DNA from: Cognatishimia sp. 1_MG-2023
GTDB taxonomy: Bacteria > Pseudomonadota > Alphaproteobacteria > Rhodobacterales > Rhodobacteraceae
NCBI RefSeq assembly: GCF_030548175.1
Contig: NZ_JAUORX010000011.1
Location: forward strand, 1-64,000
DNA length: 64,000 nt
Direction of reading: 5' to 3'
Part shown: positions 29,622-30,565 of the stretch, piece after piece
How positions within the stretch are numbered: the first letter of the stretch is position 1
How the letters are laid out: each line of letters opens with the position of its first letter
Program-made: the position numbers and the translations under genes
The notes under the pieces: model-generated
The model's input: only the letters and a program-made list of their open reading frames with translations
Told to the model about the DNA's origin: nothing
Database searches by the model: none

Positions 29622-30308
29622 ATGGGACAGCTCAAGAAAATTCTACTCGTCGACGATGATGACGATCTGCGCGAAGCTCTGTCAGAGCAATTGGTGATGA
29701 CCGAAGATTTTGATGTCTTTGAGGCCGCAAACGGCACCGAAGCTATGGGTCGTGTCAAGGAGGGTCTATATGACCTCGTAATCCTTGATGTAGGATTGCC
29801 AGACACTGACGGCCGCGAGCTTTGCCGCCTGATGCGCAAGCAGGGTGTTAAGAGCCCTATCTTGATGCTGACAGGCCATGACACAGACGCTGATACCATT
29901 CTTGGTTTGGATGCCGGCGCGAATGACTACGTGTCTAAGCCATTTAAATTCCCGGTTCTTTTGGCGCGCATTCGCGCACAATTGCGTCAGCACGAACAAA
30001 GCGAAGACGCTGTATTCACCCTAGGGCCGTATACGTTCAAACCCGCAATGAAGGTTCTTGTAACCGAGGATGATCGCAAAATCCGTCTGACGGAAAAAGA
30101 AACCAACATTCTAAAGTTCCTCTACCGCAGCACAGATGGTGTCGTGGCACGTGATGTTTTGTTGCACGAAGTCTGGGGCTACAACGCGGGCGTAACCACC
30201 CACACGTTGGAAACACACATCTACCGATTGCGTCAAAAAATCGAGCCTGATCCAAGCAATGCTCGTCTTTTGGTTACGGAATCTGGCGGATATCGTTTGG
30301 TTGCCTAA
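29622..30308 (+). CDS. cenR: OmpR-family response regulator, CenR-like
   Basis: A 228-residue response regulator. The receiver domain (1-~120) has the acidic cluster VDDDDD near the N-terminus, phospho-acceptor Asp in VILDVGLPD (about residue 54), LMLTGHD and SKPFKFP. The C-terminal winged helix ends LETHIYRLRQKIEPDPSN...GGYRLVA. The overall sequence, especially DADTILGLDAGANDY and WGYNAGVTTHTLETH, matches what I remember of CenR, an essential envelope and cell-division regulator in Caulobacter and Rhodobacter. No kinase gene is adjacent. ACGGAGA precedes the chosen ATG at 29622. Confidence 0.8.
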   Translation: MGQLKKILLVDDDDDLREALSEQLVMTEDFDVFEAANGTEAMGRVKEGLYDLVILDVGLPDTDGRELCRLMRKQGVKSPILMLTGHDTDADTILGLDAGANDYVSKPFKFPVLLARIRAQLRQHEQSEDAVFTLGPYTFKPAMKVLVTEDDRKIRLTEKETNILKFLYRSTDGVVARDVLLHEVWGYNAGVTTHTLETHIYRLRQKIEPDPSNARLLVTESGGYRLVA

Positions 30309-30369
30309 CAACTCATGGGTGAGTTCCCCCTGCAACAGGTGCATTTGAAACTTTTTTGGATCAGTTGAC

Positions 30370-30398
30370 TTGGCAGGGCTCACCATGACACCCATGTA
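30370..30398 (+). promoter_or_regulatory. Possible heat-shock-sigma-type promoter before a candidate small RNA
   Basis: C-TTGGCA (30370-30375), 14-bp spacer, ACCCATGTA (30390-30398). The layout resembles RpoH-type promoters (CTTGAAA - 13-15 bp - CCCCATNT) and is the same as that before cnoX at 31428. Inference from pattern only. Confidence 0.4.
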
Positions 30399-30401
30399 GG
30401 T

Positions 30402-30486
30402 AAGACAAGAGTTCCCGCGCATATCCGGGTTATGGTATGTACCTCCCTGTTGGACTGGTCCGGACAAACGTCCGGACCTTTTTTTT
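30402..30486 (+). ncRNA. Candidate small RNA of about 85 nt
   Basis: Between cenR and xth lies 257 bp that encode no convincing protein. A promoter-like element ends at 30398 and a strong intrinsic terminator ends at 30486. The predicted transcript has small hairpins (CCCG/CGGG; GGTA/TACC), an unpaired-looking ACCTCCCTG stretch that could pair with Shine-Dalgarno sequences, and the terminator stem. It could also be part of the cenR 3' untranslated region. Both ends are inferred. Confidence 0.35.
30457..30486 (+). terminator. Strong intrinsic terminator downstream of cenR
   Basis: Perfect 9-bp stem GGTCCGGAC / GTCCGGACC with an AAAC loop and eight T. Confidence 0.92.
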
Positions 30487-30565
30487 ATGCGTAATTTCGA
30501 TTGAGGTGGCATGTTGGCCGGCCTTTGATTAGGTTGGCACAAATCGTGAACTTTCGGAGCGCGCC

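Follow-up and report, generated by a model that had tools for sequence, protein, structure and literature searches.

The 64,000-nt window of contig NZ_JAUORX010000011.1 from Cognatishimia sp. 1_MG-2023 contains a 228-aa ORF on the forward strand (29622..30308) for the OmpR-type response regulator CenR, which is separated from xth by a gap of 257 bp (30309-30565). The best NCBIfam matches of the cenR ORF were all OmpR-type response regulators, each below its cut-off, and the nearest named relative among the best 80 of 591 matches was a Cognatishimia activa protein with 96% identity. A sequence-only reading had named the gene cenR and had proposed that the gap encodes no convincing protein and instead a base-pairing RNA of about 85 nt with a C-rich anti-Shine-Dalgarno stretch. 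The ORFs of at least 25 aa were indeed either short or antisense over cenR, and at 30412-30483 (+) the gap scored 70 bits for the Rfam family SorX (RF02784; cut-off 46.6; window-wide E = 4.3e-15), which was the sole Rfam match above cut-off across the whole window. The model was matched over its full length (positions 1-73 of 73), with the 5' hairpin, the C-rich stretch and the intrinsic terminator all present, and the RNA lies 3' of the orthologue of RSP_0847. Because RSP_0847 is identified as CenR of Rhodobacter sphaeroides in passages of PMC9275681, the arrangement in the window is the same as in R. sphaeroides, and this synteny backs the name given to the gene. The gap RNA is the already described stress sRNA SorX and not a new one; the sequence-only reading had identified the type of RNA without recognizing it as SorX, and a previously unannotated feature can now be named.

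SorX occupies 30412..30486 (+), comprising the Rfam match and the remaining T run. This corresponds to about 74 nt, or to about 81-85 nt if transcription started from a promoter-like element upstream, and either value fits the size estimated before. The terminator at the sRNA end (30457..30486, +) is as strong as had been claimed, with a 9-pair stem (30457-30478) followed by eight T that probably form an Hfq tail. Between the 5' hairpin and the terminator lies the near-invariant C-rich anti-Shine-Dalgarno stretch ACCUCCCUGUUGGAC (30441..30455, +), the likely seed, which begins with ACCTCCCTG at 30441-30449 and from which the 14-mer CCTCCCTGTTGGAC (30442-30455) occurs only once in the window. 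The assumption that this stretch is exposed held in part: in a fold without pseudoknot, the unpaired probabilities of its 15 letters ranged from 0.05 to 0.97.

In R. sphaeroides, SorX represses potA at the level of translation, binds Hfq, is induced by singlet oxygen or peroxides and contributes to the defence against singlet oxygen and organic hydroperoxides, as described in passages of PMC6238624, PMC9438474 and PMC8625941. We regard it as very likely that the window RNA is the SorX of this organism, with a 5' domain that is probably pseudoknotted, a C-rich stretch and a terminator, and with pairing to ribosome-binding sites as in R. sphaeroides. By analogy, it most likely works in the same way: the C-rich stretch would pair with the ribosome-binding sites of target mRNAs, which is potA in R. 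sphaeroides, and block their translation under stress, while the U tail of the terminator would hold Hfq. The targets in Cognatishimia are predictions. The best potA-like gene of the window genome is truncated by the start of a contig, and no potA orthologue was found among the same-genus matches listed, which reached only about 52% identity or less. The first duplex scan was performed with the whole RNA and hence with the terminator mixed in. In the seed-only scan, the gene of a sugar-importer-like transporter ATPase scored on a par with the best among 48 control starts and was not counted as a target.

A scan with the CenR protein yielded 80 named loci (best 80 of 591), which together with the window gave 81 loci. 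CCTCCCTGTTGGAC, with up to two substitutions, was found within 600 nt of the cenR stop codon in 67 of these, and it was lacking at the other 14, which might suggest, along with the strength of the terminator, that the gap merely holds the cenR terminator and an unstable 3' UTR without any regulatory RNA. The near-invariance of the 14-mer, the covarying 5' domain and the existence of a regulatory orthologue (passages of PMC9438474) make this reading highly improbable, and conservation was not limited to the terminator, the outcome that the sequence-only reading had named as evidence against an sRNA. The Rfam SorX model matched in 30 of 40 relatives and exceeded the cut-off in 19 of them. The exact 14-mer was present somewhere in 274 of 295 genomes of the bacterial family (one per genus), which is not a count of SorX alone because many genomes hold two copies.

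Several observations were made around these loci. In many genera, exactly two copies of CCTCCCTGTTGGAC were detected, consistent with one SorX and one SorY-like partner that share their seed. In Amylibacter and others, which are near the window on the cenR tree (L113, L114, L118), the SorX motif just after cenR is gone and a CTCCC-like remnant precedes the terminator, as if SorX had decayed. Downstream of cenR in Shimia litoralis (L066), the otherwise near-invariant motif is altered to TCCTCCCCGTAGGAC. Four loci from other families of the class (L031, L032, L034, L035; around 1400-1575) contain a longer RNA-like region with several hairpins, which ends in GA(C/T)(A/G)TGAA-CCTCCCTGT-terminator or similar. 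They scored below the SorX cut-off and matched no other Rfam family up to an E value of 0.05 except, weakly, SorY; possibly they belong to a wider sRNA family with the same motif.

The comparative alignment that had been suggested as a check for covariation uncovered an additional stem in the 5' domain. In alignment A1, from which four of 68 prepared sequences were left out for odd ends or lengths (L063, L091, L122, L127), the loop of the 5' hairpin opens with four nucleotides that can pair with the four just ahead of the hairpin. In the window, this stem, S1, consists of CCCG (30414..30417, +) and CGGG (30426..30429, +), the latter within the loop of the hairpin stem S2, which is formed by GCATATC (30419..30425, +) and GGTATGT (30434..30440, +); a single C (L1, 30418, +) lies between the 5' strands of S1 and S2, and TTAT (L3, 30430-30433, +) completes the loop. 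All four Watson-Crick pairs of S1 were present in 75 of 93 distinct sequences, compared to a mean of 48.1 and a maximum of 59 in dealt shuffles (0 of 2000 as high), and the stem covaries, with CCCG:CGGG in 57 sequences, CCCC:GGGG in 14, ACCG:CGGT in two and TCCC:GGGA and CCAG:CTGG in one each. Slid registers gave only 16, 2 and 0 full stems. Among the sequences in which the loop does not start with CGGG, 18 of 29 formed the full S1, which was reached by none of 2000 shuffles. These numbers were obtained with a revised rule for parsing S2 (no loop-closing G-T, at least 1 nt between S2 and CTCCC, arms up to 8, loop of at least 6), by which six of 105 sequences had no S2 and were dropped. The rule was revised after the first result had been seen, because the first rule often drew S1 letters into S2 via closing G-T pairs; with it, 60 of 93 sequences had a full S1 (maximum of the dealt shuffles 52, 0 of 2000 as high), and 10 of 29 when the loop did not start with CGGG, which 52 of 2000 shuffles also attained. 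The full stem was not formed in 18 of the 93 sequences, three of which are from the genus of the window and have three of the four pairs. On the cenR tree, the S1 pair types of the 41 named fully paired rows require four changes.

The loop comprises 8 nt in 80 of the 93 sequences, which leaves a constant 4 nt after S1; S1 adjoins S2 without gap, and the spacer is 1-2 nt in 60 of the 75 fully paired sequences. This spacing matches the geometry rule of H-type pseudoknots, and on the basis of these alignments, the SorX 5' domain is most likely such a pseudoknot, which would protect the 5' end and keep the seed free. Pair counts cannot separate a pseudoknot from a switch in which S1 and S2 form as alternative hairpins, and the energies of the two window hairpins, each alone, are close (about -4.8 and -5.5 kcal/mol with ViennaRNA, which does not score pseudoknots). 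In view of the loop length, the gapless junction and the short spacer, we nevertheless consider such a switch unlikely. The Rfam SorX model does not contain the S1 pairing, and the proposed pseudoknot is absent from RF02784. A literature search found no paper on a SorX pseudoknot, and none on SorX by title among those on pseudoknots in sRNAs of R. sphaeroides.

Upstream of SorX, an FNR box with the pattern TTGAY-N4-RTCAA was found in 28 of 59 loci (window plus the best 80 of 591; best score at least 9/10 and at least 60 nt upstream, which left out eight of the 67 SorX loci with short gaps), whereas dinucleotide shuffles predict 0.33. In 18 of the 28 loci, the box centre lies 71-73 nt before CCTCCC, corresponding to -41.5 to -43.5 relative to the Rfam 5' end, and in the remaining 10 it is spread from 46 to 86 nt before CCTCCC. 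With one genome per genus, 35 of 295 genera carried the exact box 40-70 nt upstream of the motif, while a scrambled palindrome and the reversed pattern were found in none. With +1 set at 35 nt after the box without any fitting, T occupies -12 in 30 of these 35 genera, and A occupies -11 in 26 and +1 in 20 of them; a TANNNT-like hexamer was present at the expected -10 offset in just six of the 28 named FNR loci (best 80 of 591 basis). Because spacing, -10 element and start agree, we predict for many other genera of the family a second route to SorX, a class II FNR-type promoter with its start at the SorX 5' end, on which FnrL or a different Crp/Fnr protein could act. On the cenR tree, the box requires 15 changes, compared to 23.1 with shuffled labels (0 of 500 as low), and therefore it was gained or lost many times. 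For R. sphaeroides, Imam et al. (2014; passages of PMC4263372) described an FnrL ChIP-seq site within the putative promoter of RSs2461 and stated that they could not establish its effect; RSs2461 is the former name of SorX according to passages of PMC5036791. In the literature listings and passages covered by our search, no description of an FNR promoter for SorX was found.

The SorX upstream region of the window contains no FNR box, neither at the class II position nor elsewhere. The genus of the window lacks the box and keeps TTGAC (30365..30369, +), a possible -35 element, together with TG 16 nt further on, in nine of nine genomes. TG (30386-30387) and the likewise genus-invariant A at 30390 may form an extended -10 element (30386..30390, +). 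Across eight distinct same-genus sequences, from which the near-copies L014 and L048 were left out, 16 of 106 gap columns are invariant, and TTGAC is the longest invariant run (permutation p = 0.004); its position is within 1 nt of that of the left half of the FNR box in Ruegeria. TTGAC/TG may be an extended -10 promoter or a remnant of the box. The promoter-like element CTTGGCA-N14-ACCCATGT proposed by the sequence-only reading, which we take to be RpoH-like, is present exactly as described (30369..30397, +), is the sole exact match in the window and overlaps TTGAC; it is kept in only four of nine same-genus genomes (window, L018, L019, L023), and a sigma-70 promoter scan listed nothing at this element. 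As the TTGAC/TG and the RpoH-like readings both place the start near 30401-30405, the predicted transcript would have the above-mentioned length of about 81-85 nt.

Published SorX is a processed, 3' UTR-derived RNA in R. sphaeroides (passages of PMC6238624), whose transcription starts at an RpoHI/II promoter ahead of RSP_0847 (passages of PMC3320616) and which RNase E releases from a 116-nt precursor. Processing from the cenR 3' region, which the sequence-only reading had named as an alternative to a separate gene, is the published origin, and in the window SorX probably arises from cleavage of the cenR 3' UTR, perhaps with an additional start just upstream of 30412. That SorX in the window and in its relatives is nothing but the processed 3' end of the cenR mRNA, with the upstream boxes not being its promoters, would agree with this origin, with the lack of an FNR box in the window and with the eight of 67 SorX loci in which the gap is too short for a separate promoter by the 60-nt rule (best 80 of 591 basis). 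It leaves unexplained the FNR boxes of 35 genera, which are spaced from the SorX 5' end as in class II promoters and have the -10 element in register, the TTGAC and TG kept by the genus in an otherwise variable gap and the FnrL ChIP-seq site at RSs2461 (passages of PMC4263372), and we consider it possible, if rather doubtful. Tentatively, as a proposal that is plausible without yet being probable, we suggest that SorX is, in much of the family, a gene in its own right that responds to oxygen through a class II FNR promoter; this promoter would lie within the cenR 3' region and start transcription at the known processed 5' end. The first part of the SorX RNA would be an H-type pseudoknot, shielding the 5' end and presenting the seed, and the genus of the window would have swapped the lost box for a TTGAC/TG or RpoH-like promoter and thereby oxygen for stress control.

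Compared to SorX of R. sphaeroides (RF02784), the window RNA shares the location 3' of cenR/RSP_0847, the 5' hairpin, the C-rich stretch and the terminator, whereas many relatives, excluding the window, differ by the FNR-type promoter directly upstream. SorY (RF02651) has UACCUCCCUGUUGGACU and the terminator in common with the window RNA and was rejected as its identity with 35.7 bits against a cut-off of 111; in R. sphaeroides, it has its own promoter and targets takP (passages of PMC6238624). Two more loci of the window genome contain a CCTCCCTGTT motif directly before a terminator, the second as CCTCCCTGTTAGAC. L002 (G000:C16:82999-83085, -) is flanked by a LysR-type and a purL-like gene and scored 48.9 bits for SorX and 56.3 bits for SorY; it may be the SorY counterpart. 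L003 (G000:C1:21947-22024, -) scored 43.7 and 37.2 bits, respectively. CcsR and the cuckoo RNAs carry a CCUCCUCCC motif between hairpins, whereas the window carries CCUCCCUGUU instead. FnrS of enterobacteria, an sRNA gene directly controlled by FNR (passages of PMC8139620), is a model for the SorX versions with FNR box, although FnrS and RSs2461 show no sequence similarity (passages of PMC4263372) and the window copy lacks the box.

Measured against the passages of the published SorX accounts, our analysis suggests two additions, the FNR-type promoter in relatives and the pseudoknotted 5' domain. If formed, the pseudoknot would stand out as an unusual 5' module among base-pairing sRNAs. If SorX has an FNR promoter of its own, oxygen sensing would be linked to a stress sRNA, and the so far unassigned FnrL ChIP-seq site at RSs2461 would be explained. 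Whether an sRNA that serves as a standard example of 3' UTR origin also possesses, in many species, an FNR-driven promoter of its own starting at the same 5' end can now be tested.
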